DNA of 64,000 bases from Halarcobacter sp. (lineage in GTDB: Bacteria > Campylobacterota > Campylobacteria > Campylobacterales > Arcobacteraceae). The stretch spans positions 1-64,000 of the forward strand of contig JAQYVX010000011.1 of assembly GCA_030145305.1 (NCBI GenBank), written 5' to 3'. Below are positions 5,971 through 63,279 of this stretch, in pieces. The notes under the pieces are model-generated. The model saw nothing but the letters and a program-made list of their open reading frames with translations, ran no database searches and had not been told where the DNA came from. Made by a program: the position numbers and the translations under genes. Numbering within the stretch: position 1 is the stretch's first letter; each line of letters starts with the position of its first letter.

Positions 5971-5999
5971 TAACTCTTTTTCTTGAGTTTTAGTCTATG

Positions 6000-6257
6000 C
6001 TAATCAATAAGCTCTTTTTTGATTTTTTCTTGATTTAATTTTTTACAAGCAGTTTTATATATTTCTTCAATTCTTTCTTCTTCATCATGAACAAGCTCTT
6101 TAATTTCTTCGATACTTTTTCCAGATTCTCTTGCAAAATATACTTTGTACTCTTTTTTAGTAAACTTTCTTTTTAAAACCTCAATTAATTCATCTTCTTC
6201 TTTTAGTGTTCCCACAAGTTTATCAATTGTTGATAGTAACGATTTTTCTATATTCAT
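6000..6257 (-). CDS. Small protein resembling a sigma region 4 helix-turn-helix
   Basis: 85 charged residues, unnamed. Residues 30-80 (FTKKEYKVYFARESGKSIEEI, then a second helix and EERIEEIYKTACKKLNQ) follow the spacing of sigma-70 region 4: LT-x-E...VF-RY..G.S..EIA..., then ER-V-.-IE..A..KL. It may be an HTH protein, but the recognition helix is acidic (HDEEERIEE), so DNA binding is uncertain. It starts two bases after surE stops and is probably the last gene of dnaE-surE-ORF. No function is assigned. Confidence 0.6.
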   Translation of the reverse strand: MNIEKSLLSTIDKLVGTLKEEDELIEVLKRKFTKKEYKVYFARESGKSIEEIKELVHDEEERIEEIYKTACKKLNQEKIKKELID

Positions 6258-45367: not shown

Positions 45368-45721
45368 ATGGTTTTTTTAGTTATTTTTGGACTGATTGCA
45401 ATTGTAGTTATTGCTTTAAATATTATAGATGGCTCAAATTTAGAAAAAATTGAAAATCATTTCAAGGCTTTAAATTGCCAAAATGTGATTTATTCAAAAG
45501 GTATTTATAAAGGAATTTGTAAAGATGAAATCATGCAAATACCAAATGGTTTTTCTGTAAATTTAGAAGAAGACAAAAGAATTTTAAAATTAAATGAGAT
45601 TAAAAATCTAGATATAAAGAAACTAACAATTATTATAAATAATAGTTATAATATAGAATTTAAGAAAAAAGAAAATATGGATATTTTTTACATGAAATTA
45701 AAGGAAAAGAAAAATATATGA
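45368..45721 (+). CDS. Small single-span membrane protein, unknown function
   Basis: 117 residues: N-terminal hydrophobic helix (2-20, VFLVIFGLIAIVVIALNII), then a soluble part with two Cys (Cys38 in LNCQN and Cys50 in GICKDE). No family recognised. RBS AAGGAG. The stop overlaps the following AAA+ ATPase start by ATGA, so the two are probably functionally linked. Confidence 0.7.
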   Translation: MVFLVIFGLIAIVVIALNIIDGSNLEKIENHFKALNCQNVIYSKGIYKGICKDEIMQIPNGFSVNLEEDKRILKLNEIKNLDIKKLTIIINNSYNIEFKKKENMDIFYMKLKEKKNI

Positions 45722-47451
45722 AAGAAATTATAGATTTTATAAATGCTATAGAGGTTGAAAAATCTGCTTTTTTTAAACAATTAAAATGTTCAAAAGAAGA
45801 AGCAAAAATATTACAACATATTACAAAAGAGTATATTACAGGAAGAGAAACTCTGATTGTAATTGATATTTTGTCAGAGTTTTATGATGTAAAAACATAT
45901 GCACATTTACATCATATACAGCTTATAAAATCACTTTTAGAATTTGGTTGGTTAGTACAAAATAGCTTTGATCATACAAGACTTAGTGATATGTCAAAGT
46001 TAGAGCTTTTAAATTCAGCAGTTACTCTTTCCCCTACGTATTTAAAGCTTTTAGAAAAAGGTTCTTTAGAGTTTGTTTTACCTGAGATTAAAGAATATGA
46101 AGATCACTTAGAGTATTTACAAGACCAATTTTTTAGAATAGATTTAGCTCAACAATTAAATTTAGTAAAAAGAAATTTTGATGAAAATTCACCAAATATT
46201 AATAGATTAAAATCAAAATTAACACTTCTTGAAAATAGAATTAGAGATAGAGTAAAAGAGACAACTACTGGTATTATGCTTGAGGATTTCTTTAAAACAA
46301 ATACCCTTAATGAACAAGAACAAATGTTATTTTTAGCCCTTTTAAAAGAAGAATATTCAGGAGGAGATGGAACAATTAGAGATATGAATTCTTTGATTGA
46401 TCTAGTTTCAAGCGATGATTATGAAAAAATAAAATATAGATCTTTACTTGAAGAAGGTTCAAATTTAGTTTCAAATGCACTTGTTGATTATGATGAGGTT
46501 TTAACGCCTTTTGGAGGGATTAATAGAAATTTTTATATTCCTGATGAAATTCTTTATAAAATTTCACATCCCACAAAAAAGAATACAAGAAATAGAAAAG
46601 TTAAACTTGATACTTTGATAAAAGAACAAGATACTTTTGAGTTAGTTTCTACAACTAAATCTTTAGATGATGTGGTTTTAAATGAAAAAACTAGAGGCGT
46701 TTTAGATGACTTATTAAAGCAAATGGACAAGAATGTTTTTAATCGTTTAAAACAATGGGGAATAAGAGATAAAAACAAAGGAATTGAAGCTAGAATTATT
46801 TTTTATGGCTTTGCCGGAACTGGAAAAACTTTAACTGCTCTTGCTTTTGCAAAATCTTTGAAAAGACAAGTTCTTAGTTTTGATTGTTCAAAAATTCTTT
46901 CAATGTATGTAGGTGAAAGTGAAAAAAATGTAAGAGGAATTTTTGATAAATATTATGAAATAAGGGATAAAAGTAAAGCTGAACCTATTTTACTTTTAAA
47001 CGAAGCTGACCAATTTTTAAGTTCAAGAACTACTTCAAGTTCAAGTGGAAGTGAAAAAATGCATAATCAAATGCAAAATATTTTCTTAGAGCAAATTGAG
47101 AAATTTGATGGAATATTAATAGCAACAACAAACCTCTTAGAATCATTAGATACAGCATTTTCAAGAAGATTTAACTACAAAATAGAGTTTAAAAAACCAA
47201 CTTTAGAACAAAGAAATAAATTATGGGAAAAATTACTTCCTAAAACTCTACCTTTAGAAAAAGATTTTGATATAAAAAAGTTAGTTAAATATGAATTAAC
47301 TGGGGGTCAAATTGAAATGGTTATAAAAAATACAGCTTTTAAAATTGCTGTTGAAGAGGAACCTATCTTTAGTGTAAAATCTTTTGAAGAACAAATAGAA
47401 AAAGAGCTAAAAGGCAACTTTGATTCTGAAAATAAAGTAGGCTTCTTTTAG
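45718..47451 (+). CDS. AAA+ ATPase, cytoplasmic, unknown role
   Basis: 577 residues. The C-terminal AAA+ module (about 350-550) has Walker A GFAGTGKT, a Walker B-like LLLNEADQFL in which the usual first Asp is Asn, sensor 1 IATTNLLESLDTAF and the Arg finger SRRFNYKIEF. The N-terminal 330 residues are helical with no recognised domain. Related classic-type AAA proteins are unfoldases or remodelers. The overlap with the preceding small membrane protein suggests membrane recruitment. It precedes the nuo operon by 168 bp. Confidence 0.85.
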   Translation: MKEIIDFINAIEVEKSAFFKQLKCSKEEAKILQHITKEYITGRETLIVIDILSEFYDVKTYAHLHHIQLIKSLLEFGWLVQNSFDHTRLSDMSKLELLNSAVTLSPTYLKLLEKGSLEFVLPEIKEYEDHLEYLQDQFFRIDLAQQLNLVKRNFDENSPNINRLKSKLTLLENRIRDRVKETTTGIMLEDFFKTNTLNEQEQMLFLALLKEEYSGGDGTIRDMNSLIDLVSSDDYEKIKYRSLLEEGSNLVSNALVDYDEVLTPFGGINRNFYIPDEILYKISHPTKKNTRNRKVKLDTLIKEQDTFELVSTTKSLDDVVLNEKTRGVLDDLLKQMDKNVFNRLKQWGIRDKNKGIEARIIFYGFAGTGKTLTALAFAKSLKRQVLSFDCSKILSMYVGESEKNVRGIFDKYYEIRDKSKAEPILLLNEADQFLSSRTTSSSSGSEKMHNQMQNIFLEQIEKFDGILIATTNLLESLDTAFSRRFNYKIEFKKPTLEQRNKLWEKLLPKTLPLEKDFDIKKLVKYELTGGQIEMVIKNTAFKIAVEEEPIFSVKSFEEQIEKELKGNFDSENKVGFF

Positions 47452-47619: not shown

Positions 47620-48009
47620 ATGACACATATGGATTTTTCTCATCCGTATTTCGGTGTATTTGTAATGTTTATACTTACCTTTGGGGCATTTATAGCAATT
47701 GTATGGATTGCAAGAGTTGTAAGTAGAAAGCTTGCACGTCTTGATACTGAGAAGCTTAAAGTCTCACTTTATGAGTGTGGACCTGAGGTTACAAAGCAAC
47801 CAAATAGTATATCCGTTCAGTTCTATTTGATGGCACTACTATTTATTCTATTTGACATAGAAATCATATTTATGTTCCCGTGGGCAATTAACTTTAAAAT
47901 TCTTGGCTGGTTTGGATTTGTAGAGATGGTTCTATTTATTCTTTTACTTACTATTGGATTTATCTACGCATGGAAAAAAGGAGCCCTTGAATGGCACAGC
48001 ATAAAGTAA
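47620..48009 (+). CDS. nuoA: NADH-quinone oxidoreductase subunit A
   Basis: 129 residues, three membrane helices. Conserved polar loop YECGPEV (about 48-54) with TM segments at about 10-30, 63-83 and 95-115. First gene of the nuo operon, part of the membrane arm near the quinone site. RBS GAAGGA. Its 3' end overlaps nuoB by 19 bp. Confidence 0.96.
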
Positions 48010-48500
48010 ATTATTTACAAGATGGTGGAGCTCCAATCGCTCTTACTACGGTTGATAAATTAGTAAATTGGGGAAGGTCAAACTCCTTATGGCCTTTAAC
48101 ATATGGCTTAGCCTGTTGTGCTATTGAAATGATGGCAACAGGAGCTTCAAGATATGACTTTGATAGATTTGGAACAATTTTCAGGGCAAGTCCTAGACAA
48201 GCAGATGTAATTGTTGTTGCTGGAACATTAACAAAAAAACATGCAGAATTTATGAGAAGATTGTATGATCAAATGCCTGATCCTAAGTGGGTAATTTCGA
48301 TGGGTTCTTGTGCAAATACAGGAGGTATGTTTAATACCTATGCAACTGTTCAAGGGGTTGATAGAATTATTCCTGTGGATATTTATCTTCCAGGATGTGC
48401 TCCACGACCTGAAACACTACAATATGCGCTTATGACACTTCAAAAGAAAATAAGAAGAGAGTCCATTTTTAGATCAATTAAGAAAAAAAGGTTAGTGTAA
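47991..48500 (+). CDS. nuoB: NADH-quinone oxidoreductase subunit B
   Basis: 169 residues. Carries cluster N2, the electron donor to quinone. Cys ligands: adjacent pair in [19 protein letters not shown] and LPGCAPRPE. The start lies inside nuoA (19-bp overlap), and the stop shares one base with nuoC's ATG, so the three are coupled. Confidence 0.98.
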
Positions 48501-49306
48501 TGAGAAAATATACGCCTAAACATGATGTTCAACATAAATCTTATTTCAATGATAGATTTTATGTAACCCCTCAAACTCCAAAGAAAAATCCAAATGAAGA
48601 TGAAGTTTACTCAAAAGATGTGGAAGCTTTAGAAAATAAATTTGAAATTTCAAAATCATATATAGAAATAGATGAATTAGTTGTGTATATAAATGCCCAA
48701 GATAATGTTTCAGTTCTTACATTTTTAAGAGATGAATTAGAGTATGAAATGCTAATGGAAATGTCGGCAATTGATTATATAGCACAAAGAGGTGGCTTTG
48801 AAATTTTTTATGAAATGTTATCTTTAACAAAAAGAAAAAGACTTAGAGTAAAAACTTTTATTAGACAAAAACAAACTATTGAGTCAGTTTATGATGTTTT
48901 TAAAATGGCAAACTGGGCTGAACGAGAAATGTATGATATGTATGGTGTAAAAATATTAAATCATCCAAATATGAAAAGAATTCTTATGCCTGATGATTGG
49001 TATGATTATCCTTTAAGAAAAACATATCCTCTGATTGGTGATGAAACAGCACAATGGTACGAAGTAGATAAAGTTTTTGGTAAAGAATATAGAGATGTAA
49101 TTGGCCCTGAAATTAGAGATTGTGCAAATATAGATAGATATGACACAGAACGTTTTTCAAGACTTGGTCATGAAGTACCATATGGAACTGATATTAGTGA
49201 TGGGAAGGAGCCTGATACTCCAATTTCATATCAAGAAGAAGGTGGAGTTCCTTTATATAGAAAACTTAAGCCAGAAGATTCTGTAACAATTAAAGAGAAA
49301 AGGTAA
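48500..49306 (+). CDS. nuoC: NADH-quinone oxidoreductase subunit C
   Basis: 268 residues, larger than E. coli's NuoC part because of N- and C-terminal extensions. Core motif: [41 protein letters not shown]. Peripheral-arm subunit without cofactors. Separate from nuoD (not a NuoCD fusion). Confidence 0.95.
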
Positions 49307-49311
49307 GTAGT

Positions 49312-50541
49312 ATGCAACAATCAGTAAATAGATTAAAACCTTTCTTTGAAAATATACATTTTGAGAGAGAAGATAACGCTATGATGGTTAACTTTGGTCC
49401 TCAACATCCTTCTGCTCATGGTCAAATGAGACTTATGTTGGAGCTTAAAGGTGAAGAAGTAGTGAAAGCTAGACCAGGTGTTGGATACTTGCATCGTGGT
49501 ATGGAAAAAATGGGTGAGAATATGATTTATAATGAATTCTTACCAACAACAGATAGAATGGATTATATAGCTTCAACTTCAAATAACTATGGTTATGCCT
49601 TAGCTGTTGAAAAATTACTTGGAATTGAAGTTCCTAGACGTGGAGAGATTATTAGAACTATGTTAGTTGAACTAAATAGAATGATTTCTCATGTTTTTTG
49701 GCTTGCTTGTCATGCTCTTGATGTGGGAGCAATGTCTGTATTTTTATATACTTTTAGAGATAGAGAATTCGCAATGGACTTAATCGAAGATTATTGTGGA
49801 GCAAGACTTACTCATAGTACAGTTAGAATTGGTGGAGTTCCTTTAGACTTGCCCGAAGATTGGTGCGATAAACTTGAAGCATATTTAAAAAATCAAGAAA
49901 TAGAAACAGCAAAATATGAAGGACTTTTAACAGAAAATAGAATCTGGAGAATGAGACTTGAAAATGTTGGTGTTATTAATGAACAAATGGCAAAAACATG
50001 GGCTTGTTCCGGGATTGTTTTAAGAGCTTCAGGTGTTAAATGGGATTTAAGACGAGAAATGCCTTATGGTTTATATCCTGAATTAGATTTTGATGTTCCA
50101 ATTGCAAGCACAGGTGATGCTTATGGAAGATACAAATGTCATATGAAAGAATTAGGTGAAACTACTAAGATTTTAAGACAACTAATTACAATGTACAAAA
50201 AAAGTGATTCTGCTCTTATGGCTCATGCTCCTGAGTATATCTCTGCAACAAAAGAAGATATTATGACTCAAAACTACTCTTTAATGCAACATTTTGTACT
50301 AGTAACACAAGGTATGAGACCTCCAAAAGGTGAAGTTTATGTAGCAACTGAGTCTCCCAAAGGTGAGCTAGGTTTTATGATTGTTAGTGATGGTTCCCCT
50401 TATGCTTATAAAATGAAGTTAAGAGCACCATCTTTTTGGCATACAGGACTTTTAGAAGACTTGCTTCCTGGTCACCAGTTAGCTGATGTTGTAACAATTA
50501 TTGGTAACCTGAATGTAGTGTTTGGCGAAATTGACCGGTAA
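49312..50541 (+). CDS. nuoD: NADH-quinone oxidoreductase subunit D
   Basis: 409 residues. Forms the quinone-binding cavity with NuoB. Starts its core with [35 protein letters not shown] and [10 protein letters not shown] are present; C-terminal [23 protein letters not shown] and VVFGEIDR ending. Full length and unbroken. The TTG reading that overlaps its 3' end is not a real start for the next gene. Confidence 0.97.
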
Positions 50542-50551
50542 AAGGAAAAAT

Positions 50552-50845
50552 ATGAAAAGATATGATTTAAGACCATTAAAAGATAAGTTTTATGACAGAA
50601 TGTTAGAGCTTATGGATAAAGATATTAAAGATGGTGAAAATGCAATTTTCCTTTTTGAAATTGGTGATTTCTCTCCTATCCAAAAATCTTCTGATGTAAT
50701 TTTAGAAGCGGGATATACATTAATGAATTCCATAAAATTCAATGAAGTAGATTGGACAATTGTTGTAAAAAAAGTTAAGCCAGAAGTTGCTGTAATAGAT
50801 GATAGTCCAGCCGAAGAAACAAGTAAAAAAATAAGTGAAGAGTAA
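50552..50845 (+). CDS. Small subunit in the NuoE position (Campylobacterota type)
   Basis: 97 residues. It sits where nuoE should be but has no thioredoxin-like 2Fe-2S domain and no Cys at all. It resembles the short protein reported for Campylobacter (Cj1575c) and Helicobacter (HP1264): RPLKDKFYDRMLELMDKDI, EIGDFSPIQKSSDVILEAGYTLMNSIKF and WTIVVKK. The tail is acidic. Probably a structural adaptor of complex I that serves a non-NADH donor. ATG 50552 is chosen because AAAAGGAAAA lies just before it. Confidence 0.85.
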   Translation: MKRYDLRPLKDKFYDRMLELMDKDIKDGENAIFLFEIGDFSPIQKSSDVILEAGYTLMNSIKFNEVDWTIVVKKVKPEVAVIDDSPAEETSKKISEE

Positions 50846-50847
50846 AC

Positions 50848-51660
50848 ATGAATATTAAAGAAATTATAGCAAAAAGCGATTATATTATTACATTTGGGTC
50901 ATTTTTATCAGCCGATAATGAGCAAATCCAAGAAGCAATTATTCAAGCAATTGCTAAGAATTCAGCAGAGTTTGTATATATGCATCCAATTGATAATGTT
51001 GATTTAAAAGTTTATTATTCACAGTTTATTAAATATGAAGCTGGAAGTGAAGAGGGAATTTCTGCACTACTATTAGATACTTTTGTTAAATCAAGCAATG
51101 AAAAAATTCAAGCTTATTTAGATGATTTAGATATTGGATATATTTCTGCTGAAAGTAGTGCAGGTGAAGAAGAGTTTGAAGAAGCTTACGAAAAGTCTTT
51201 AGAAAAAAAACAGAAAACTTTGATTTTAGGACGAGATATTTTTACACATGAAAGAGTTGAAAATATTACAAAAATATTATCAGTAATTAGAAAATATAGT
51301 GATTTGACTGTTATATCGCTAGAAGAAGAGTATCAGTATATTTTAGATGAGATTTTAAACGAAAATCTTGAAGAACCAAAAGAATTACATTCATACAATG
51401 GCACAGTTGTATATAGAACTTATGGAAATGAAAACACAGATATTATAGTTGGAAGTGAATCTTTTGCAAGAATTGCTAAAGTAGCTAATGACGATGAGGT
51501 TCTTGTTAATTGTATGGGTGATAAAATTAAAAAAACTTTTGTTGTTAATAAGGACTTGTATGGAACGATTGCACTTTGTGCAATGAAGAGTGATGATTCA
51601 AATTGTTTATCTCAAGGGTATAGGTATAAACAAGTAAAAATTGAAAAGGTTGATGAATAA
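50848..51660 (+). CDS. NuoF-position subunit, paralogue of the NuoG C-terminal half
   Basis: 270 residues, the counterpart of Cj1574c/HP1265. No NADH or FMN Rossmann-type motif and no Cys cluster as in true NuoF. By eye it is collinear with NuoG about 370-820: SDYIITFGSFLSAD with SNFVISLGSYLKSD, VYMHPIDN with IYFHPIAD, GRDIFTHERVENITKIL with GEDLFTHPQSENLAKLC, and YRYKQVKIEK with YRYSKAVIKK. It therefore looks like a partial NuoG duplication filling the NuoF position. Electron donor is thought to be reduced flavodoxin in related species. Confidence 0.85.
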   Translation: MNIKEIIAKSDYIITFGSFLSADNEQIQEAIIQAIAKNSAEFVYMHPIDNVDLKVYYSQFIKYEAGSEEGISALLLDTFVKSSNEKIQAYLDDLDIGYISAESSAGEEEFEEAYEKSLEKKQKTLILGRDIFTHERVENITKILSVIRKYSDLTVISLEEEYQYILDEILNENLEEPKELHSYNGTVVYRTYGNENTDIIVGSESFARIAKVANDDEVLVNCMGDKIKKTFVVNKDLYGTIALCAMKSDDSNCLSQGYRYKQVKIEKVDE

Positions 51661-54137
51661 TGAGTGATTTAATTACATTAACAATAAATGACAAAACCCT
51701 TCAAGCAAAAGAGGGTGACTCAATATTAAACGTTGCCCGTGCAAACGATATCTTTGTTCCAGCAGTTTGTTATTTAACAAGATGTTCTCCTACTTTAGCC
51801 TGTAGATTGTGTCTTGTTGAAGCTGATGGAAAGCAAGTGTATTCTTGTAATGCAAAAGTAAAAGAAGGAATGGTAGTCTCAACTGAAACTGCAAATATCG
51901 CTAAAGAAAGACGAGCTATTATGGAGGTTTATGATGTAAACCATCCTTTGCAGTGTGGAGTTTGTGACCAAAGTGGTGAATGTGAACTTCAAAACTACTC
52001 TTTATATATGAAAGTAGATTCGCAAAAGTATACTATAAAAGATGTGGCAAGACCAGCTGCTTCTTGGGGTGTTATGAAATATGACCCTGGATTATGTATA
52101 GTTTGTGAAAAATGTGTAACTGTTTGTAAAGATATGATTGGTTCAAATGCTTTAAGTACAGTTAAACGTGGTGCTGATGCAATTGAAAAAACATTTAAAG
52201 ATGAAATGCCAAAAGATGCATATGCCATGTGGAATAAGCTTAATAAATCACTTATTGGCTTTGAAGCTGATAATTGTACAGATTGTGGCGAGTGTATTTC
52301 AGTTTGTCCTGTTGGAGCTTTAGTTTCTGCTGATTTTCAATATAAATCAAATGCTTGGGAATTAAATAAAATCCCTGCTGCTAATCCTCATTCTTCTGAT
52401 TGTGCATTTATGTATTATGAAACAAAGCATACTTCATTAGAAGATCCAAGCCCTAAAATTTATAGAGTTACAAATGAACATCATTATTCAACTATAAATG
52501 GAGCTGCAAGATTTGCTTATGATTTTGAGAATAAAGTAAAAGAAAAAGATGAAAAAGCATTTAACAAAGCTGTTGAAGCATTTAAGAAAGCAAAAACTAT
52601 TAAGTTTAATTCATATATTACAAATGAAGAAGCTTTTATCTTACAATCAATTGCTAAAAAAACTGGTGCAAAACTTGTAAATAAAGATGCCTTTAACTAT
52701 AAAAAGTTTTTAAATGCATATTCAACAGTTTCAGAACAGGCTTTATACTCTTCAAGTTTGACTGAAGTTCATGATTCTAATTTTGTTATTTCTCTTGGTT
52801 CATATTTAAAATCAGATTTACCAAATGCAAGATATGCCTTTAATAACTTAGTTACTACAAATAAAGGAAGTGGTATTTACTTCCATCCAATAGCTGACCC
52901 AGTTATAGAAAAAATTGGTAAAAAAGGTAAAACTACAGAGTTTATTTATCATAAACCCTTATGTGAAGAGTCAATTTTATATTTTATTTTAAATAGATTT
53001 GGAAAAAAATTACCAGAAAATATTCAAGTATATTTAGACTCATTTAAAGAAACAAGAAAGAAAACAATAGTTGAAACAATAAAAGAGACTGTTGTAGAAA
53101 TTGTGAAAGATGAAGAAACAGGGGAAGAAAAAGAAGTTAAGAAAATAGTTCCTAAAAAAGTTAAAACAGAAGTTGAATTTGAATATACAAGACTTCTTGA
53201 TAATATAGGACAAGATGAAAGCTTCCTTGAAACTATTGATACTTTAATTGCTAAAGTTGATACTTATTCATTAATGGTAGGAGAAGATTTATTTACTCAT
53301 CCCCAAAGTGAAAATCTAGCAAAACTATGTGGATTAATTGATAAATATACAGATTTTTCTCTTGTGATTATTCCTTCACAAACAAATACTCTAGGAGTTA
53401 GTTTACTTTGTGATATTGAGGAAAATATAGATGGCTTTACTGTAGGATACAACGAAAAAGCAGATTTCCAATTAAGTGCTTTAGGTGATGGAGATTTAGA
53501 TATTCCCGCACTTAATCAGCAAGAAGGAACATTTACTAATATTGATAAAAAAGTAATACCTACAAATGCAGCACTTCCATATAATGGCTATACCTTAAAT
53601 GATATTGCAAATGAAGTTTTAGGTTTAGATATTGAACATACAATTGAATACACTGAATTACTTCCTGAAGCTAAAGGTTTTAAATCAATTCATTTTGATA
53701 AATTACCAAACTATTTTGGAAATGATAGAGTTGAATATAGAGGTTACTCTTTAAATTCAACTTCTAGTGAAACTATAAAAAATGAACAAGTTGAAGAGAT
53801 AAAAACAAAAGTTTTAGAAGCAAATGAAAATGAGTTTATAATTTATAGAGCTAATCCAATTAATCAGTTTAATGAATTTACAGCAATTGCTCATGAATTT
53901 GCAGAAAACTTACAATCAGGAATTTTTGCTTCGCCTAATTTATTAGAAAAGTTAGAAGTTAAAGAGGGTGAGCGTGTAAATGTAGTTTCAAATGGTCTTG
54001 AAATGAATTTAATTATTTACTGTGATAATCAAATTGCAGGAGATATAGCATATGTTTCAAACTTTGAAAAAGATTTGGATACACGAAGCTTATTTGACAC
54101 ATACAGATATAGTAAAGCTGTAATTAAAAAGGCATAA
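51660..54137 (+). CDS. nuoG: NADH-quinone oxidoreductase subunit G
   Basis: 825 residues. N-terminal plant-type 2Fe-2S domain (CYLTRCSPTLACRLC...YSC), then HPLQCGVCDQSGECELQ, two 4Fe-4S motifs CIVCEKCVTVC and CTDCGECISVCP, and a degenerate molybdopterin-type domain. An unusual Lys/Glu-rich insert (about 460-505, KKTIVETIKETVVEIVK...) splits the C-terminal domain. Carries electrons toward NuoI. The start overlaps the stop of the preceding gene (TAATG). Confidence 0.95.
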   Translation: MSDLITLTINDKTLQAKEGDSILNVARANDIFVPAVCYLTRCSPTLACRLCLVEADGKQVYSCNAKVKEGMVVSTETANIAKERRAIMEVYDVNHPLQCGVCDQSGECELQNYSLYMKVDSQKYTIKDVARPAASWGVMKYDPGLCIVCEKCVTVCKDMIGSNALSTVKRGADAIEKTFKDEMPKDAYAMWNKLNKSLIGFEADNCTDCGECISVCPVGALVSADFQYKSNAWELNKIPAANPHSSDCAFMYYETKHTSLEDPSPKIYRVTNEHHYSTINGAARFAYDFENKVKEKDEKAFNKAVEAFKKAKTIKFNSYITNEEAFILQSIAKKTGAKLVNKDAFNYKKFLNAYSTVSEQALYSSSLTEVHDSNFVISLGSYLKSDLPNARYAFNNLVTTNKGSGIYFHPIADPVIEKIGKKGKTTEFIYHKPLCEESILYFILNRFGKKLPENIQVYLDSFKETRKKTIVETIKETVVEIVKDEETGEEKEVKKIVPKKVKTEVEFEYTRLLDNIGQDESFLETIDTLIAKVDTYSLMVGEDLFTHPQSENLAKLCGLIDKYTDFSLVIIPSQTNTLGVSLLCDIEENIDGFTVGYNEKADFQLSALGDGDLDIPALNQQEGTFTNIDKKVIPTNAALPYNGYTLNDIANEVLGLDIEHTIEYTELLPEAKGFKSIHFDKLPNYFGNDRVEYRGYSLNSTSSETIKNEQVEEIKTKVLEANENEFIIYRANPINQFNEFTAIAHEFAENLQSGIFASPNLLEKLEVKEGERVNVVSNGLEMNLIIYCDNQIAGDIAYVSNFEKDLDTRSLFDTYRYSKAVIKKA

Positions 54138-54138
54138 C

Positions 54139-55128
54139 ATGGAAATAGGATTTATTATTGAAACGGTAGTAAAAGTAGTTGTCGTTCTTTCGGTATTAGC
54201 TTCCATAGCAGCTTTTACAACATACATAGAAAGAAAAGTCTTAGCTTATATGCAAAGACGACATGGACCTATGAATGTTGGACCGCATGGGGTACTACAA
54301 TTAGCAGCAGATGGAATAAAACTTTTTACTAAAGAAGATTTTATCCCTCAAAATGCAGTAAGACCTATATTTATGATAGCTCCAATTATCACAGCAGCAA
54401 CAGCATTTATTGCAGCAACAGCTGTTCCCTTTTTCCCAGAATTTGAACTTTTTGGATATACAGTACGACCTATTATTGCAGATGTAAATACTGGGGTGCT
54501 ATTTGTTATGGGAGTTGCTTCTGTTGGACTTTATGGACCATTATTAGCAGGTATGAGTTCTGCTAACAAATGGGCACTTTTAGGAGGTGCTAGGACAGCT
54601 ATTCAACTTTTATCTTATGAAGTTGTTTCAGGACTTGCACTTTTAGCTCCACTTATGATGGTTGGAAGCTTATCTTTGATTGATATAAACAATTATCAAA
54701 TGGGTGAAAATTATTGGTTAGTAGTTTATCAACCTTTAGCTTTTATTCTTTTTGTAATAGCAGGATTTGCTGAAACAAATAGAACACCTTTTGATTTACT
54801 TGAGCATGAAGCTGAAATTGTTGCAGGATATGCAACTGAATACTCAGGTATGAGATGGGGAATGTTCTTTATTGGAGAATATGCAAATTTATTTACAATT
54901 TGTTTCTTGATTTCGCTTATTTTCCTAGGTGGATTTAATGATATGTGGTTTATACCTGGTGGTTTAGCGATTATATTAAAAGTTATGATGTTGATTTTCT
55001 TCTTTTTATGGACAAGAGCTTCTTGGCCACATATTAGACCTGACCAATTAATGTGGTTATGTTGGAAAATTTTAATGCCATTATCAGTAATTAATATTTT
55101 AATTACTGGCTTTGTAATGATGTTTTAG
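54139..55128 (+). CDS. nuoH: NADH-quinone oxidoreductase subunit H
   Basis: 329 residues, eight membrane helices. Quinone channel subunit, connecting both arms. Conserved AAFTTYIERKVLAYMQRRHGP, GGARTAIQLLSYEV and polar loop ETNRTPFDLLEHEAEIVAGYATEYSG are intact. Two bases after nuoG. Confidence 0.97.
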   Translation: MEIGFIIETVVKVVVVLSVLASIAAFTTYIERKVLAYMQRRHGPMNVGPHGVLQLAADGIKLFTKEDFIPQNAVRPIFMIAPIITAATAFIAATAVPFFPEFELFGYTVRPIIADVNTGVLFVMGVASVGLYGPLLAGMSSANKWALLGGARTAIQLLSYEVVSGLALLAPLMMVGSLSLIDINNYQMGENYWLVVYQPLAFILFVIAGFAETNRTPFDLLEHEAEIVAGYATEYSGMRWGMFFIGEYANLFTICFLISLIFLGGFNDMWFIPGGLAIILKVMMLIFFFLWTRASWPHIRPDQLMWLCWKILMPLSVINILITGFVMMF

Positions 55129-55136
55129 GAGTTAAT

Positions 55137-55760
55137 ATGGGATTAGATAAATTAAAAGATAGAAATATTGCTGTTGGGGATTATATCAATATTTTAGAAG
55201 ATGAATATCCTAAAACTGGATGGGAAGAATTTAAGCAAGTAACTAGAAGATCTGTAAAAGGTGAATTATTTGGTGGGCTTAAAATTGTATGGAAAATGAT
55301 GACAGGTGCTCTTTTTAGAGATGAAATGCATACGGTTTCATATCCACAAGAAAAACTTCCAATAACAGCTAGATATAGAGCTGTTCATAAATTACTCGCT
55401 CTTCTAGAATCAGGGGAGAATAGATGTATTGGTTGTGGGCTTTGTGAAAAAATTTGTATTTCTGATTGTATTAGAATGGATACAAAAATTGATAAAAATT
55501 CAAGAAAAGAAGTTTTAGAATATAGTATTAATATGGGTAGATGTATTTTCTGTGGTTATTGTGCGGAAGTATGTCCCGAACTTGCAATTGTTCATGGTGG
55601 AAGATATGAAAATGCAAGTGAACAAAGAGCGCATTTTGCGTTAAAAGAGGATTTATTAACTCCACTTGATAAATTATCACAACAACAAGAGTATCCTGGT
55701 TTTGGTGCTGTATCTCCTGATGCAGACGAAAAAATCAAGAAAACTCCATTGTCATATTAA
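55137..55760 (+). CDS. nuoI: NADH-quinone oxidoreductase subunit I
   Basis: 207 residues. Two 4Fe-4S clusters: CIGCGLCEKICISDC (about 98-112) and CIFCGYCAEVCPE (about 137-149), the latter with standard CxxCxxCxxxCP. N-terminal amphipathic region contacts the membrane. The first motif has CISDC rather than CP after the third Cys. Confidence 0.97.
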   Translation: MGLDKLKDRNIAVGDYINILEDEYPKTGWEEFKQVTRRSVKGELFGGLKIVWKMMTGALFRDEMHTVSYPQEKLPITARYRAVHKLLALLESGENRCIGCGLCEKICISDCIRMDTKIDKNSRKEVLEYSINMGRCIFCGYCAEVCPELAIVHGGRYENASEQRAHFALKEDLLTPLDKLSQQQEYPGFGAVSPDADEKIKKTPLSY

Positions 55761-55769
55761 GGAGGGAAG

Positions 55770-56360
55770 ATGTTTGAAATAGTAGCTTTTTATCTGTTTT
55801 CAATCTTAACAATAGTTATGTTTTGTATAACAGTCTTTACAAATAATTCGTTATATGCATTAAGTTCATTAGCAGCGGGCATGATTTTCATTTCAGCTTT
55901 CTTCTTTTTACTTGACGCTGACTTTTTAGGTGCAGTGCAGATTGTTGTTTATACAGGTGCTGTTATGGCTTTATATGCCTTTGGTATGATGTTCTTTGAC
56001 TCTTTATCAATTGTTAAAGAAAAAATAAAAAACCCAAGATTAGTATTTTTATTAACAGGAGTTGTTGCACTTATAATTGTTATTATTTTTGTATCACCTA
56101 TTATTGGAGCAAATATAGAAGCCCAATATCCTGTTACTCCTACTTGGGGAAATTCACGTGATGTTGGTATTGTTTTATTTACAAAATATTTAATTCCTTT
56201 TGAAGTTGCAGCGGTAATGTTACTTGTTGCAATGATTGGTGGGATTATACTAGCTGGTAAAAAAATGGAAGTTTCTTATTCTGAAATGACTGAAAAAGAA
56301 ATTGATGATTTTGAAATACAAACTCGTGAAAATACAGCCGCTAAAAAGGATGAAAAATGA
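55770..56360 (+). CDS. nuoJ: NADH-quinone oxidoreductase subunit J
   Basis: 196 residues, five membrane helices (first about 2-22). Typical GAVQIVVYTGAVMALYAFGMMFF in TM3, proton-path region. Charged cytoplasmic tail. RBS GGAGGGA. Its stop overlaps nuoK by ATGA. Confidence 0.95.
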   Translation: MFEIVAFYLFSILTIVMFCITVFTNNSLYALSSLAAGMIFISAFFFLLDADFLGAVQIVVYTGAVMALYAFGMMFFDSLSIVKEKIKNPRLVFLLTGVVALIIVIIFVSPIIGANIEAQYPVTPTWGNSRDVGIVLFTKYLIPFEVAAVMLLVAMIGGIILAGKKMEVSYSEMTEKEIDDFEIQTRENTAAKKDEK

Positions 56361-56656
56361 GTTTAAATGCTTACTTAATTTTATCAACAATCTTATTTGT
56401 AATAGGTATGATGGGGGTAATTAGAAGAAAAAATCTTTTAATGCTCTTCTTTTCAACTGAAATAATGTTAAATGCAGTGAATATTGGGCTTGCTGCAATT
56501 TCTAAATTCTATGGGGATTTAACAGGTCAAATGTTTGCATTTTTTATTATTGCAATTGCAGCAAGTGAAGTAGCTATTGGATTGGGATTACTAATTCTTT
56601 GGTATAAAAGAACTGGATCAATTGATTTAGATGTATTACAAAAAATGAAGGGCTAA
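56357..56656 (+). CDS. nuoK: NADH-quinone oxidoreductase subunit K
   Basis: 99 residues, three membrane helices. Conserved Glu in FFSTEIMLNAVNIGL and second in ASEVAIGLGLLILWYKR, both on the proton path. Coupled to nuoJ (ATGA overlap). Confidence 0.97.
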   Translation: MSLNAYLILSTILFVIGMMGVIRRKNLLMLFFSTEIMLNAVNIGLAAISKFYGDLTGQMFAFFIIAIAASEVAIGLGLLILWYKRTGSIDLDVLQKMKG

Positions 56657-56659
56657 GGC

Positions 56660-58600
56660 ATGGAAAAATATTTATATATAGCACTTTTTGCTCCTTTAGT
56701 AGGTTCTTTAATAGCAGCACTATTTTCAATGCGACCAAAAATACTTTTTACAGGAGTTATAACTTCTATTTTATTAGCAGTTTCAATGATAGCTTCTTTA
56801 AATCTTTTATACTATGTATATTCAACAGAAGCAATAGTTCATGTTAAACTTATGGATTGGATTGTTATAGGAAATTTAGATATTCCTTTAGGCTTTGTAG
56901 TTGATCAAGTAAGTGTTACTATGATGGTTGTGGTTACTATTGTTTCAACAATGGTGCATATTCATTCAATTGGATATATGGATCATGATAAATCTTTTAA
57001 TAGATATTTTGCTTGGTTATCAGCTTTTGTATTTTCAATGATGATTTTAGTAATGAGTGATAACTTTGCAGGACTATTTATAGGCTGGGAAGGTGTTGGT
57101 CTTTGTTCATGGGGATTAATTGGTTTTTGGTATCACACAGTTGATAGAGAAAAATCATCAGATATTTATAAATCACCATTTTCAACACTTTCACCTTTTT
57201 CTTCAATAAGTCCTAGTTTTGCAGCAAATGAAGCATTTATTACAAATAGGGTTGCTGATCTTGGAATGTTAGTTGCAATATTCTTAATTTATTGGAATAT
57301 TGGAAGTTTACAATATGATGATGTCTTCGCACAAATTGGAACGCTAGAAACTGGTTTAATTGTAACAATTGCGATTTTCCTTTTTATTGGTGCAATGGGT
57401 AAATCAGCACAATTTCCATTTAATCAATGGCTTGCCAATGCAATGGAAGGACCAACTCCAGTTTCAGCTCTTATTCATGCTGCAACGATGGTAACAGCAG
57501 GGGTTTATTTGATAATTAGAGCAAATGAAATCTTTACAGCAGTTCCAGAGGTTGGGTATTTCATAGCTTGTCTTGGAGCATTTGTAGCAATTGGTGCTGC
57601 TTCTATGGCTTTAGTTGCAAGTAATATTAAAAAAATCATTGCTTTTTCAACTTTATCACAACTTGGATATATGTTTGTAGCTGCTGGTCTTGGAGCTTAT
57701 TGGGTAGCTTTATTTCATCTGGCAACTCATGCTTTCTTTAAATCAGTTCTTTTCTTAGGAGCTGGAAATGTTATGCATGGATTAAATAATGAAATAAATA
57801 TTAAAAAGATGGGTGGACTTCATAAATATATGAAATCAACATCAATTATTATGACAATAGCTTCAGTTGCACTTGCTGGAATTTTTCCACTATCTGGATT
57901 CTTTTCTAAAGACTTGATCTTAGAAACAGCTTTTGGTAGCCATGCATATATCTTATGGGCAGTTTTATGGATAACAGCAGGACTTACAGCCTTTTATTCA
58001 TTTAGACTTATAATGTATGTATTTCATGGAGAAGAAAATTTTAATAAATTTCAAGAGCCTAATTTTCATCCACATGAAACATATCCATTTGTAATTGCTG
58101 CTATGACACCACTTGTTGTTCTTGCTGTGGTTGCTGGTTTCTTTAAAACTTCATATATTGAGATGATTACTAAAAAATTACCTGAATTAGATATCCATGT
58201 AGCTTCTGGAACTTTTTGGGTTTTAGTAGTAGTAACTCTTGGAATTGCTTTAAGTGGAATTGCTTTTGCAGTTATCAAATTTAGAAAAGATGGAACATAT
58301 TTTAGTGAAAATAATAAAGATAAAGCCTTTTATAAACTATTAGCAAACCAATATTATATGCCTCATCTTATAGATAAAATAATTTTAAAACCATATTTAG
58401 CACTATCAAGCTTCTCTTGGAAAAAAATTGATTTAAAAATTGTTGATGCAATTGTTGATGGTGTAGCAAAAGTTATTTATAAAAGTGGTGAAGGAACTAG
58501 ACTTATTCAAACAGGTAACTTATCAAGTTCTTTAAGATTGATGATCTTTGGAATCACAGTATTATTAGTGTTAAGTGTTGCACTTGGCATAGCGAAGTAA
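56660..58600 (+). CDS. nuoL: NADH-quinone oxidoreductase subunit L
   Basis: 646 residues, antiporter-like proton-pumping subunit. GWEGVGLCSWGLIGFW (TM5 Glu), SAQFPFNQWLANAMEGPTPVSALIHAATMVTAGVYL, and KKIIAFSTLSQLGYM are intact. A long lateral helix and extra TM lie at the C-terminus. Distal end of the membrane arm. Confidence 0.97.
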   Translation: MEKYLYIALFAPLVGSLIAALFSMRPKILFTGVITSILLAVSMIASLNLLYYVYSTEAIVHVKLMDWIVIGNLDIPLGFVVDQVSVTMMVVVTIVSTMVHIHSIGYMDHDKSFNRYFAWLSAFVFSMMILVMSDNFAGLFIGWEGVGLCSWGLIGFWYHTVDREKSSDIYKSPFSTLSPFSSISPSFAANEAFITNRVADLGMLVAIFLIYWNIGSLQYDDVFAQIGTLETGLIVTIAIFLFIGAMGKSAQFPFNQWLANAMEGPTPVSALIHAATMVTAGVYLIIRANEIFTAVPEVGYFIACLGAFVAIGAASMALVASNIKKIIAFSTLSQLGYMFVAAGLGAYWVALFHLATHAFFKSVLFLGAGNVMHGLNNEINIKKMGGLHKYMKSTSIIMTIASVALAGIFPLSGFFSKDLILETAFGSHAYILWAVLWITAGLTAFYSFRLIMYVFHGEENFNKFQEPNFHPHETYPFVIAAMTPLVVLAVVAGFFKTSYIEMITKKLPELDIHVASGTFWVLVVVTLGIALSGIAFAVIKFRKDGTYFSENNKDKAFYKLLANQYYMPHLIDKIILKPYLALSSFSWKKIDLKIVDAIVDGVAKVIYKSGEGTRLIQTGNLSSSLRLMIFGITVLLVLSVALGIAK

Positions 58601-58612
58601 GGGGTTAGATAG

Positions 58613-60142
58613 ATGGAACACATTTTATCAATTTTAATATTTTTTCCAGCATTTGCAGCATTGATTGGATTTTTAGTAAAAGATGATTCTATTAGAATTT
58701 ATGGAATCGTCGTAACTGCAATTGAGTTTGTCTTAAGTCTTTTACTTTGGTCAAACTTTGATTCAACAGTAGCTGGAATGCAATTTCTTGAAACAATTCC
58801 TATGATAAGTGCATATGGAATTAACTATATTGTTGGAATAGATGGAATTTCATTATTCTTAGTAATTATGACAACCTTTATGACAATGATTTCAATTATT
58901 GGATTGAGCGAAAAAAGAAATTTAAAGCATTTATTAATCACTGTGTTATTTTTAGAAATGACTATGGTGGGGGTATTTTTAGCTTTAGATGCAATTATTT
59001 TCTACTTATTCTGGGAATTATCCCTTGTTCCAATGCTTTATATAATTGGAGCTTGGGGTGGAAATTTAAGAATTTATGCAGCGATTAAATTTTTCTTATA
59101 TACCTTCATAGGTTCTTTAATTATGCTTGTTGGTATGTTATATTTAGGATATGTGTATTTTCAAACAACAGGAAATTGGAGCTTTAGTCTACAAGATTGG
59201 AATATGATGATTTTGCCATTTGATATGCAGTTTTGGTTATTTATTGCATTCTTTTGTGGTTTTGCAATCAAAGTTCCGATGTTTCCATTTCATACATGGC
59301 TTCCTTATGCTCATGGACAAGCCCCAACAATAGGTTCGGTATTACTAGCCGCAGTTCTATTGAAAATGGGAACATACGGGTTTGTAAGATTTTCTTTACC
59401 TTTATTTCCTGATGCTTCTGTATATTTTATAATTCCAATGGCTATTTTAGCTCTTATAGCAATTGTTTACACCGCTATGGTAGCTTATGCTCAAGAAGAT
59501 ATGAAACAAGTAATTGCCTACTCCTCTGTATCTCATATGGGTGTAATTATCTTAGGTATTTTTGCACTAAATGTAGAAGGAATTGGTGGTTCAATTTTCT
59601 TAATGATTTCACATGGTATTGTTTCTGGGGCTCTGTTTATGTTAGTTGGAGTTATTTATGATAGAAGACATACTAAGATGATAAAAGATTTTGGAGGATT
59701 AGCTTTAGTTATGCCAAAATTTGCAACAATTTTTGCAATTATGTTAATGGCATCCATAGGACTTCCTTTGACTATTGGTTTTGTTGGAGAGTTTTTATCT
59801 TTACTTGGATTCTTTAAAGTTTCTCCTGTTTTAACAGTAATTGCAGGTCTTACAATTATTTTAGGAGCTGTTTATATGTTAGTTATGTATAAAAAGTCTT
59901 TCTTTGGACCACTTACAAACGAAGCAAATAAAACCCTTGAAGATGTAAAAGGAAAAGAGTTAGTAGCTTTAATTCCTTTAGTAGCTTTAGTTGTTATTTT
60001 AGGTGTTTACCCAAAACCAATTTTAGATCCAATAAATAGATCAGTTTCACAGTTGGTTGAAGTTATGCAAATAAAAGCAGTAAACCCAAGCACTAAGGCA
60101 AAAATCTTAGAGTATAACACAACAGCAGGAGGTGCAAAATGA
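58613..60142 (+). CDS. nuoM: NADH-quinone oxidoreductase subunit M
   Basis: 509 residues, antiporter-like subunit. FYLFWELSLVPMLYIIGAWGG (TM5 Glu), KVPMFPFHTWLPYAHGQAPTIGSVLLAAVLLKMGTYG and KQVIAYSSVSHMGVI present. The stop overlaps nuoN by four bases (ATGA). Confidence 0.97.
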   Translation: MEHILSILIFFPAFAALIGFLVKDDSIRIYGIVVTAIEFVLSLLLWSNFDSTVAGMQFLETIPMISAYGINYIVGIDGISLFLVIMTTFMTMISIIGLSEKRNLKHLLITVLFLEMTMVGVFLALDAIIFYLFWELSLVPMLYIIGAWGGNLRIYAAIKFFLYTFIGSLIMLVGMLYLGYVYFQTTGNWSFSLQDWNMMILPFDMQFWLFIAFFCGFAIKVPMFPFHTWLPYAHGQAPTIGSVLLAAVLLKMGTYGFVRFSLPLFPDASVYFIIPMAILALIAIVYTAMVAYAQEDMKQVIAYSSVSHMGVIILGIFALNVEGIGGSIFLMISHGIVSGALFMLVGVIYDRRHTKMIKDFGGLALVMPKFATIFAIMLMASIGLPLTIGFVGEFLSLLGFFKVSPVLTVIAGLTIILGAVYMLVMYKKSFFGPLTNEANKTLEDVKGKELVALIPLVALVVILGVYPKPILDPINRSVSQLVEVMQIKAVNPSTKAKILEYNTTAGGAK

Positions 60143-61629
60143 TAGATGTAGCACCTATATCAATTGAATTTGCAAGTTTAAATTTTGGAACAATTGTTCC
60201 AATGTTAGTTGCCATTGTTGGAGCACTTGTAATTTTATGTATTGACTTAGCAAATAAAAAACTTGATAAGTCTTTATATATTATGTTAACAGTTCTATTT
60301 TTGATTGTTGACTTAGGAACACTTCTTGGCTACTCAGGTGATGTTAGAGGATTCTTTGACTTAATGTTAGTTGATGGAATTGCAATTCTTTCACAAGGAG
60401 TTATTGTAGTTGCAGCACTAGTATTTGTAATAACTGCAATGAGTAATTTAAGATTCCAAGAGTATAGGTATCCTGAGTATTTTGCACTATATTTATTTAT
60501 GGTTGCAGGTTTTCAGTTTATGGTAAGTTCAGACTCTTTGATTCTAATTTTTGTAGGACTTGAAACAGCTTCAATGGCATTGTATACAATAATAGCAATG
60601 CATAACAGAAGAAATGCTTTAGAAGCTGCAATTAAGTACTTCACAATGGGTGCTTTAGCAACTGCATTTTTTGCTTTTGGTTCTATGATTTTTTATGCAA
60701 TTACAGGTACTGTAGAATTAGGTCAAATTTCGGAAATATTAGTTGCCTCAAATTTTGAAAATTATCCAATGATTTTAATTGGTGTAATTTTTATGCTAGG
60801 AGCTTTAGGTTTCAAATTATCACTAGTTCCTTATCATACTTGGCTACCTGATGTTTATGAAGGTTCAACTGCTGCCTTAGCTGGATTTATGTCAATTGTT
60901 CCAAAGATGGCTGGATTTGTTGTAGCTCTTAGATTTTTTGAAATCTTTATTTCAAGTGGAGATATTTATGTTGAGATAATTTTATATGTAACAGTTGTTT
61001 TATCTATGACTGTTCCAAATATCATAGCCCTTGTGCAAACTGATATTAATAGAATGCTTGCTTACTCATCAATCTCAAATGCAGGTTTTGCAATGAGTGC
61101 AATTTTAATAGGAACTACGCAAGCTACTAATGCCTTATTCTTATATTGGATTCTATTTTTAATTACAAACTTTGGAGCATTTACAATGTTATGGCTAAAT
61201 AGAAGTAAAGATTATGATTCTTTTGATTCTGATCATTCTTTAGATAAATATTCAGGTTTAATAAAAACTTCTCCTTTTGCGGCAAGTATGATGGGATTGT
61301 TTTTACTTTCACTTGCAGGTCTTCCACCTTTTGCACTTTTCTGGGGAAAGATGTATTTAATTGGAAGTGCTGTTAATGCTGGATACATGATATTAGCCCT
61401 TGTAATGGTAATAAACGCTGGAATTGCAGGATATTATTATTTAAAACCAATTGTATATATGTTCTTAAAAGATCCAATTGAAGGAAATAAGACTAAGTAC
61501 ATGGAAAATGCAACGACTCCAATTAAAGCATTAATTGGATTTTGTGCGATTATAACTATTTTATCAATATTTTTAATTGAACCACTATTAGAGATAATTT
61601 CTTATTATGTTCAAATCTCTGGTTACTAG
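60139..61629 (+). CDS. nuoN: NADH-quinone oxidoreductase subunit N
   Basis: 496 residues, antiporter-like subunit and last gene of the operon. FVGLETASMALYTIIAM (TM5 Glu), KLSLVPYHTWLPDVYEGSTAALAGFMSIVPKM and NRMLAYSSISNAGFAMSA present. The stop codon lies within the operon terminator stem. Confidence 0.97.
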   Translation: MIDVAPISIEFASLNFGTIVPMLVAIVGALVILCIDLANKKLDKSLYIMLTVLFLIVDLGTLLGYSGDVRGFFDLMLVDGIAILSQGVIVVAALVFVITAMSNLRFQEYRYPEYFALYLFMVAGFQFMVSSDSLILIFVGLETASMALYTIIAMHNRRNALEAAIKYFTMGALATAFFAFGSMIFYAITGTVELGQISEILVASNFENYPMILIGVIFMLGALGFKLSLVPYHTWLPDVYEGSTAALAGFMSIVPKMAGFVVALRFFEIFISSGDIYVEIILYVTVVLSMTVPNIIALVQTDINRMLAYSSISNAGFAMSAILIGTTQATNALFLYWILFLITNFGAFTMLWLNRSKDYDSFDSDHSLDKYSGLIKTSPFAASMMGLFLLSLAGLPPFALFWGKMYLIGSAVNAGYMILALVMVINAGIAGYYYLKPIVYMFLKDPIEGNKTKYMENATTPIKALIGFCAIITILSIFLIEPLLEIISYYVQISGY

Positions 61630-61650
61630 GATTTTTCCTAGTAACTTTTT
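61622..61650 (+). terminator. nuo operon terminator containing two stop codons
   Basis: Perfect 9-bp stem GTTACTAGG (61622-61630) / CCTAGTAAC (61637-61645), six-base loop, followed by TTTTT. The left arm contains the nuoN stop (TAG 61627-61629), the right arm the stop of the convergent gene (complement of 61638-61640). The minus strand lacks a T tract, so it mainly terminates nuo. Confidence 0.85.
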
Positions 61651-62415: not shown

Positions 62416-63279
62416 TTGAAAACTATAAGTGTTGCACACTCTCCTGATGCTGATGATATTTTTATGTATTATGCAATTAAATTTGGCTGGGTTACATCAA
62501 ATGATGCCATTTTTACAAATATAGCAGACGATATTGAAACTTTAAATAAAGCCACATTAAAAGGCGAATACGACATTTGTGCTATCTCTTTTGCTTTGTA
62601 TCCTTTTGTAAAAGATGATTATGCTTTGCTTAAAACTGCTGTTTCATTTGGTGAAGGTTATGGACCTAAGCTTATAAAAAGAAAAGGAACAAAACTAAAA
62701 AGAAATTTTAAAGTTGCACTTAGTGGTGAGTTTACTACAAATGGATTGCTTTTTAAAATAGCTTATCCTGAAGCTAGAATTACTTATATGAACTTTTTAG
62801 ATATTGAAAAAGCAGTTATTGACGGAGTTGTTGATGCTGGAGTTTTAATTCATGAATCAATTTTATCTTTTGATGATGAGCTTGAAGTAGAACGAGAAAT
62901 ATGGGATATTTGGGTTGAACTTAGTGGTGGAGATTTACCTTTACCTTTAGGTGGAATGTGCATAAGACGTTCAATTCCTCTTCATAGTGCAATTGATTAT
63001 GAAAATACATTAATTAAAGCTGTTGATGTAGCAAATAAAAATAGAAAAGTCTTAGCTCCTATGCTTTTAGAAAAAGGACTTATTAGAGTCGATGCTGCAA
63101 CTTTAGATACCTATTTAGATCTTTATGCAAATGATAATTCTGTAAAGTTAAGTGAAATTCAATATAAAGCTTTAGATAAATTATTTGAACTTGGATATAA
63201 AAATGGTTTTTATGAAAACTTAGTTCGAGCAAAAGATTTTTTAATACCTGAAGAATACGAGGAATTACGAGCAAAGTGA
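62416..63279 (+). CDS. mqnD: Futalosine-pathway menaquinone enzyme, MqnD-type
   Basis: 287 residues, periplasmic-binding-protein-like fold. N-terminal SVAHSPDADDIFMYYAI is the Campylobacterota form of the MqnD/MqnA signature (SP-x-P/A-x-D). DICAISFALYPFV, LSGEFTTNGLLFKIAYPEA, DAGVLIHESILSF and LPLPLGGMCIRRS follow. MqnD forms 1,4-dihydroxy-6-naphthoate; homologous MqnA cannot be fully excluded by eye. TTG start with AAGGAAAT upstream. Stop overlaps murB start (GTGA). It supplies the menaquinone that complex I reduces. Confidence 0.88.
   Translation: MKTISVAHSPDADDIFMYYAIKFGWVTSNDAIFTNIADDIETLNKATLKGEYDICAISFALYPFVKDDYALLKTAVSFGEGYGPKLIKRKGTKLKRNFKVALSGEFTTNGLLFKIAYPEARITYMNFLDIEKAVIDGVVDAGVLIHESILSFDDELEVEREIWDIWVELSGGDLPLPLGGMCIRRSIPLHSAIDYENTLIKAVDVANKNRKVLAPMLLEKGLIRVDAATLDTYLDLYANDNSVKLSEIQYKALDKLFELGYKNGFYENLVRAKDFLIPEEYEELRAK

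Follow-up and report, generated by a model that had tools for sequence, protein, structure and literature searches.

In Campylobacter jejuni, complex I is said to have neither nuoE nor nuoF (PMC7641608), and nuoXY is reported to replace nuoEF for the use of flavodoxin or ferredoxin, with flavodoxin as the electron donor, A. butzleri having the canonical nuoEF instead of nuoXY (PMC6682613). HP1264 binds flavin mononucleotide (FMN) (PMC6269979), and the subunit in the place of NuoF goes under the names hypothetical protein or NuoF (e.g., PMC3561388). We analyzed a 64,000-nucleotide stretch of DNA from Halarcobacter sp. (contig JAQYVX010000011.1, positions 1 to 64,000; "the window"), which contains a nuo operon of the Campylobacterota type (nuoA through nuoN, 47620-61629) with nuoX and nuoY occupying the place of nuoE and nuoF. 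We find that the nuoY product consists of domains III and IV from a paralogue of NuoG, that a full-length form of this paralogue occurs elsewhere in the phylum beside a GltD-type flavoprotein, and that nuoY is kept in genomes without this type of complex I. Domains are numbered as in formate dehydrogenase H.

The window gene resembles the Campylobacterota NuoY (HP1265, Cj1574c) in its place between nuoX and nuoG. It is homologous to NuoG/Nqo3, the 75 kDa subunit of complex I, over domains III and IV, and differs from it in having no iron-sulfur (Fe-S) region, domain II, or beta hairpin and in carrying a conserved signature of its own. Molybdenum/tungsten-bisMGD oxidoreductases such as formate dehydrogenase H have the same fold in these two domains, together with a [4Fe-4S] domain and a domain II that nuoY lacks. 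The full-length form and its flavoprotein are comparable to SfrAB (Geobacter), NsoC, and StnC, in which a GltD-like flavoprotein likewise stands beside a NuoG-like Fe-S protein, judging by family models, gene order, and the description in PMC7483475; unlike those, they sit inside a complex I operon beside a second NuoG, and the flavoprotein carries the NuoF N3-cluster domain PF10589. Our literature search, whose range did not include the main paper, Weerakoon and Olson 2008, turned up no mention of NuoG as the source of NuoY/HP1265, of a long form, or of orphan copies.

nuoY Corresponds to Two Domains of NuoG

The initial annotation, made from the sequence of the window, had noted collinear motif matches between the nuoY and nuoG products. 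Both open reading frames (ORFs) are present (Table 1), and the motif pairs fall in register. BLASTP aligns the two products as a pair of collinear segments (E 3e-7 and 0.001), and a search of the window's own genome with nuoY at E<=10 gave, as its only other matches, two collinear segments within NuoG (E 5.8e-6 and 8.4e-5). NCBIfam NF006305, the model for Campylobacterota-type NuoG, matches nuoY in three stretches (E 7.5e-23), at 80.5 bits, below the curated cut-off of 591. Finally, hhalign matches a profile of 21 nuoY orthologues, nearly all from Arcobacteraceae, to one of 58 NuoG with a probability of 99.6 % and an E-value of 4.5e-25 over 265 collinear columns (NuoG model positions 374-823). 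The likeness of nuoY to NuoG is far beyond chance. A Pfam scan of nuoY found no family at a credible E-value (the best, 0.39, was to an unrelated family, with no PF10589 and no NADH/FMN domain), and a PDB sequence search with nuoY returned nothing credible. Descent of nuoY from NuoF was rejected, as Pfam and NCBIfam model searches gave no NuoF match.

Alignment of 98 proteins maps nuoY onto NuoG residues 368-570 plus 717-825; residues 1-367, which hold all Fe-S ligands (the N1b, N4/N5, and N6 region), and 571-716 are absent from nuoY. The match, first described as extending over nearly the whole subunit, is collinear and not unbroken, since NuoG has an extra hairpin at residues 463-510 and about 146 residues at 571-716. 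The spacer between the two retained parts spans 9-45 residues in 43 short Y proteins of the kind found in the window, versus 103-168 in NuoG and the long forms, a comparison made without locus L091, which is cut by a contig end, and two outgroups. Among the 43 short Y aligned there is no conserved Cys column, which supports the suggestion that this subunit is cofactor-free with respect to Fe-S clusters.

The AlphaFold 2 (AF2) model of nuoY has a mean pLDDT (predicted local distance difference test score) of 96.0 and a pTM (predicted template modeling score) of 0.92; where the NuoG model has its hairpin, that of nuoY has two short helices bearing an E-S-x-x-G-E-E-E motif. Residues 1-270 superpose on residues 158-690 of Escherichia coli formate dehydrogenase H (1aa6) with Z 21.6 and a root-mean-square deviation (rmsd) of 2.9 over 253 aligned residues, and on residues 363-907 of E. 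coli NuoG (7nz1_G) with Z 17.1 and rmsd 3.6 over 246; window NuoG 235-825 superposes on 1aa6 residues 1-688 with Z 25.9 and rmsd 3.2 over 513. Derivation of nuoY from NuoG, as proposed in the initial annotation, is strongly supported by the profile match and by a fold that is that of NuoG/formate dehydrogenase domains III and IV; neither a missing profile match nor a better match to a different fold was found.

A Full-Length Form Accompanies a GltD-Type Flavoprotein

Locus L030, found by similarity in an Arcobacter metagenome-assembled genome, encodes a 671-residue protein and a 779-residue second NuoG between nuoX and nuoG. The second NuoG (ORF 3897-6236) has 2Fe-2S, NADH-G, and 4Fe-4S domains, carries the Y signatures in its C-terminal half, and reaches 820.8 bits with the model for Campylobacterota NuoG versus 205.8 with the general one. 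The 671-residue protein, which we call FG, combines the NuoF N3-cluster domain (PF10589) with a GltD-type FAD/NAD(P) part (PF14691, PF07992); family models detect no NuoF FMN domain in the FG of L030. We classified 111 Y loci, some of them near-copies, into 32 long (about 670-840 residues) and 79 short (frames of 219-353 residues). FG adjoins every long Y (32/32) and no short one (0/79), is absent from the lineages with short Y, the window's included, and stands in the order nuoX - FG - long Y - nuoG in long-type loci. Cysteines for N1b-, N5-, N6-, and N7-type clusters are kept in 29-31 of 31 long Y (L091 not counted), the clusters being named by comparison with the Citrobacter NuoG row and by the usual numbering. 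Because FG and long Y are reduced or lost together, short Y is a remnant and not a direct substitute for NuoF. The idea that derivation from NuoG explains how the NADH module was replaced accordingly holds for the derivation and fails for direct substitution, since the full-length Y adjoins a separate NuoF-N3/GltD-type flavoprotein. A Y profile search gave matches in 373/397 genomes drawn from the phylum, the weak ones among which may be NuoG itself.

The tandem long Y and nuoG genes have near-identical DNA in four loci: 619 and 631 bp at 100 % (L078 and L079), 619 bp at 97.6 % (L071), and 514 bp at 99.6 % (L086). In these loci the two genes are undergoing gene conversion. Most of the common stretch falls in the middle segment missing from short Y, as if, to judge from these sequences, the middle of long Y were exchangeable for that of NuoG and the Y-specific parts were not.

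Irregular frames were also seen. nuoG is split in two frames in genome G035 (C1:111566-113892; 308 + 539 residues) and at L086:6703-9088 (315 + 538 residues), either a real split or a sequencing error, and at L076:8029-8643 (-) the FMN-protein domain of a 205-residue nuoX frame is followed by a long tail rich in Ala, Lys, and Glu.

nuoY Is Kept in Genomes without This Complex I

None of 37 Y-bearing genomes that were searched specifically has a phylum-type NuoD, a NuoG above the family cut-off, or a NuoX: ten of genus g2 and one of g9 (both in the window's family), nine of family f5, thirteen of f3/g24, and four of f2/g26. Their best NuoD matches reach <=313 bits, versus >=577 where the phylum-type NuoD is present. 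No NuoD match at 1e-10 was found in five of them (G016, G018, G119, G158, and G269), and a sixth, G366, has only a weak one (1.2e-27); these six and the nine f5 genomes have no NuoG match at 1e-5. The fetched stretches of thirteen orphan loci contain no nuo genes, except a weak, 17-bit NuoD-like frame in L119.

All eight Arcobacteraceae orphan loci read have the order ATPase - nuoY - mqnD - murB, the last two gene names being presumed from the sequences of the window's mqnD-like gene (Table 1) and of the murB-like frame that follows it at 63276. As the whole nuo operon of the window lies between the same flanking genes, the operon has been deleted on both sides of Y in the orphan Arcobacteraceae; in the Y tree the g2 orphans nest among operon copies from the same genus. 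The ratio of nonsynonymous to synonymous substitution rates (dN/dS) is 0.155-0.185 among three f5 orphans, 0.12-0.39 for closely related pairs from Arcobacteraceae, and 0.11-0.20 in operon copies of Y. Operon copies and close orphan pairs are under purifying selection. Retention of Y in bacteria that have lost this complex I means that it probably has another job. The presence of molybdenum/tungsten enzymes was rejected as an explanation of orphan Y, PF04879 being found in 51/52 genomes, including all 15 without a Y match. The only complex I of the orphan Arcobacteraceae has a fused NuoCD and a NuoG of no more than about 480-490 residues, with which the canonical nuoEF reported for A. butzleri (PMC6682613) agrees.

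Seven residues (E64, D95, G97, E102, G185, F206, and G239) are each conserved at 97-100 % in long, short, and orphan Y alike (counted without L091 and L028). Among NuoG rows, G239 is present in 81 % and the other six in only 10-38 %. Since the signature is common to all three forms, the pair of Y domains seems to have had a role of its own before truncation and to have kept it when alone. In addition, nuoX and nuoY are fused into one frame of 352-354 residues in 3/3 genomes of genus g61, which points to contact of Y with the FMN protein.

Evolutionary History of the Short and Long Forms

A tree of Y and NuoG, built from 75 of the 111 Y loci (those left out being mostly near-copies), places all 75 Y rows, long and short, on one side and all 21 NuoG on the other. 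A second tree, of nuoC, nuoD, nuoH, and the N terminus of NuoG, covers 68 loci that have nuoD, nuoH, and nuoG (without L033-L061, L120, L121, and L031) and was made by a quick search with support from SH-aLRT (the Shimodaira-Hasegawa-like approximate likelihood ratio test) only. This operon tree needs at least seven changes between short and long, all forced by branches of support >=95. The Y tree alone has a minimum of four, and constraining the short forms to a single clade lowers the log-likelihood by 32.8 from that of the free Y tree, with an approximately unbiased test value (p-AU) of 0.072, which does not reject such a clade; this test left out L091 and L028, the latter trimmed too short. 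The plain reading of the operon tree is repeated truncation with loss of FG, a single truncation followed by transfer being possible.

Genome G208 has two complex I clusters (L093 and L094), both with short Y; a congener, G096, carries the long form. In the Y tree the L094 copy falls with a Y from family f10 at support 100 and looks transferred.

Gene Content of the Window

The coordinates are collected in Table 1. The nuoX ORF has a TTG start, its PF16514 match begins at its residue 11, and an ATG lies at 50552; the nuoY and nuoG ORFs overlap by one base. A 206-residue protein encoded at 61638-62258 (-), between nuoN and mqnD, is not found in orphan-nuoY loci, where mqnD directly follows nuoY. 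The window's NuoG has complete four-Cys sets at residues 146-156 and 206-216 and is without the N7-type cysteines, which are present in 11/21 NuoG and 30-31/31 long Y. Elsewhere in the same genome are a NuoG-like frame of 481 residues (C65:13989-14936), such as a second complex I would have, and a 240-residue frame (C38:179957-180574) that matches the N terminus of NuoG and is perhaps HoxU-like.

Table 1. Coordinates of nuoXY, nuoG, and flanking genes in the window, and of fused nuoX-nuoY frames at other loci
Feature	Coordinates	Strand	Basis or remark
AAA-type ATPase gene, upstream of nuoA	45718..47451	+	left flank of orphan-nuoY locus in Arcobacteraceae
nuoX (HP1264-like FMN protein)	50522..50845	+	PF16514 E 9.1e-39; PDB 2lxr (HP1264) E 5e-23
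nuoY, truncated second NuoG, 270 residues	50848..51660	+	BLASTP, NF006305, hhalign, AF2
nuoY residues 1-157, Rossmann-like domain III	50848..51318	+	aligned to NuoG 368-570; AF2; formate dehydrogenase H 1aa6 match
nuoY junction, ~22 residues replacing the ~146-residue middle segment of NuoG	51319..51384	+	alignment
nuoY residues 180-270, domain IV	51385..51657	+	aligned to NuoG 717-825; AF2; 1aa6 match
nuoG, 825 residues	51660..54137	+	NF006305 1135 bits; AF2 pLDDT 90.5, pTM 0.90
nuoG residues 1-367, Fe-S region with the beginning of the dehydrogenase-like part, no nuoY counterpart	51660..52760	+	
nuoG residues 463-510, predicted long beta hairpin	53046..53189	+	AF2
nuoG residues 571-716, middle segment (domain II), gone from nuoY	53370..53807	+	alignment
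mqnD-like gene (presumed)	62416..63279	+	right flank of orphan-nuoY locus in Arcobacteraceae
nuoX-nuoY fusion frame	L095:4489-5547	-	
nuoX-nuoY fusion frame	L126:2773-3834	+	
nuoX-nuoY fusion frame	L127:2709-3764	+	

Discussion

On a slight balance of probability, we favor an explanation in which nuoY is the remnant of a NuoG paralogue that acts as an adaptor at the flavodoxin entry of complex I and has a second job besides. In the full arrangement FG would oxidize NAD(P)H and long Y would relay electrons on towards NuoG. In the short arrangement flavodoxin or ferredoxin would deliver the electrons, NuoX would be the FMN site, and Y would be a redox-inert adaptor that links NuoX with the NuoG arm. 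The partner-binding face of Y would be older than the truncation and used for the second job outside complex I, and we propose that Y outlives the rest of the operon because this face serves that job. The picture given in the initial annotation, of a subunit that packs on NuoG as an inert second copy, appears too simple on the present comparisons, given orphan survival in 37 genomes, complex I operons without Y, and a Y signature that is mostly not found in NuoG. A broader proposal, which we advance tentatively as possible rather than probable, is that the pair of domains III and IV is a functional unit that has, outside complex I, a partner or ligand of its own. It would once have belonged to a doubled NuoG, in an ancestral Campylobacterota complex I that was fed by a GltD-type flavoprotein and perhaps coupled NAD(P)H and ferredoxin/flavodoxin with quinone at a single input; the redox-active parts would have been shed with the NAD(P)H input, and the unit alone kept after loss of this complex I in four families of the sample.

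Several observations weigh against this account and are set here beside the alternatives. The top fold matches of nuoY are formate dehydrogenases (Z 22.0 for 7vw6_A, followed by 1aa6), above E. coli NuoG, and nuoY has a G-S-E-E loop where the window NuoG has L-C-E-E, as would suit an origin of Y from a formate-dehydrogenase-type molybdoenzyme, its likeness to NuoG being an older common fold. We regard such an origin as very unlikely, since long Y is a complete NuoG with N1b/N5/N6/N7-type ligands that scores highly on the Campylobacterota NuoG model, and long Y and NuoG stand in tandem with gene conversion between them in some loci. Support for the split between Y and NuoG is 83 on the Y side and 28 for NuoG as a group, and the root of this tree is weak because the outgroup NuoG from plasmids (Ensifer and Citrobacter) have very long branches, 2.92 and 3.51. 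Closer to an even prospect, and still somewhat short of it, is a single origin of short Y, with transfer of the operon or of an X-Y piece between lineages in place of repeated truncation. The same two losses in all 43 short Y aligned, the four changes and p-AU of the Y tree, and the grouping of the G208 copy with family f10 all speak for one origin; the seven strongly supported changes of the operon tree, and the better likelihood of the free Y tree, speak for repeated truncation.

The retention of Y invites two further alternatives. That Y is purely structural in complex I and in orphan genomes serves a second, canonical-type complex I would fit the short NuoG of the orphan Arcobacteraceae, whose absent C-terminal half Y might contribute in trans; we consider this unlikely, as the five orphan genomes without a NuoD match and G366 with its weak one have no NuoG match either, nor have the nine f5 genomes. 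Some complex I of this type seem able to dispense with Y: at L124:1045-4906 and L125:756-4653, in genus g27, the order is nuoD - nuoX - nuoG with no Y between, and NuoD and NuoG are 248-252 bp apart in 8/8 g27 genomes checked. Profile search found no Y match in these eight, a search that a very diverged copy could escape, and other g27 members have Y. Outside Arcobacteraceae the orphan Y has no constant neighbor (five loci, four of them listed gene by gene), which leaves the second job without a candidate partner, and distant orphan pairs give dN/dS of 0.65-0.78, with weak dS estimates. Together with the large variation in length and sequence of Y between lineages, the operons without Y might suggest a decaying, functionless leftover kept by chance. 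That is the most improbable of the readings, given purifying selection on operon copies and close orphan pairs, a signature conserved across long, short, and orphan forms, and an Arcobacteraceae operon that was deleted around a Y retained at every locus.

How Campylobacterota complex I takes in electrons without NuoE and NuoF is an old question. A stripped NuoG, its full-length relative, and a flavoprotein within one phylum provide a directly comparable series of states, with NAD(P)H-type input, with flavodoxin-type input, and with no complex I of this type. The orphan copies open a second function to single-gene removal, free of confusion by defects of this complex I, and the present gene names mislead metabolic reconstructions.

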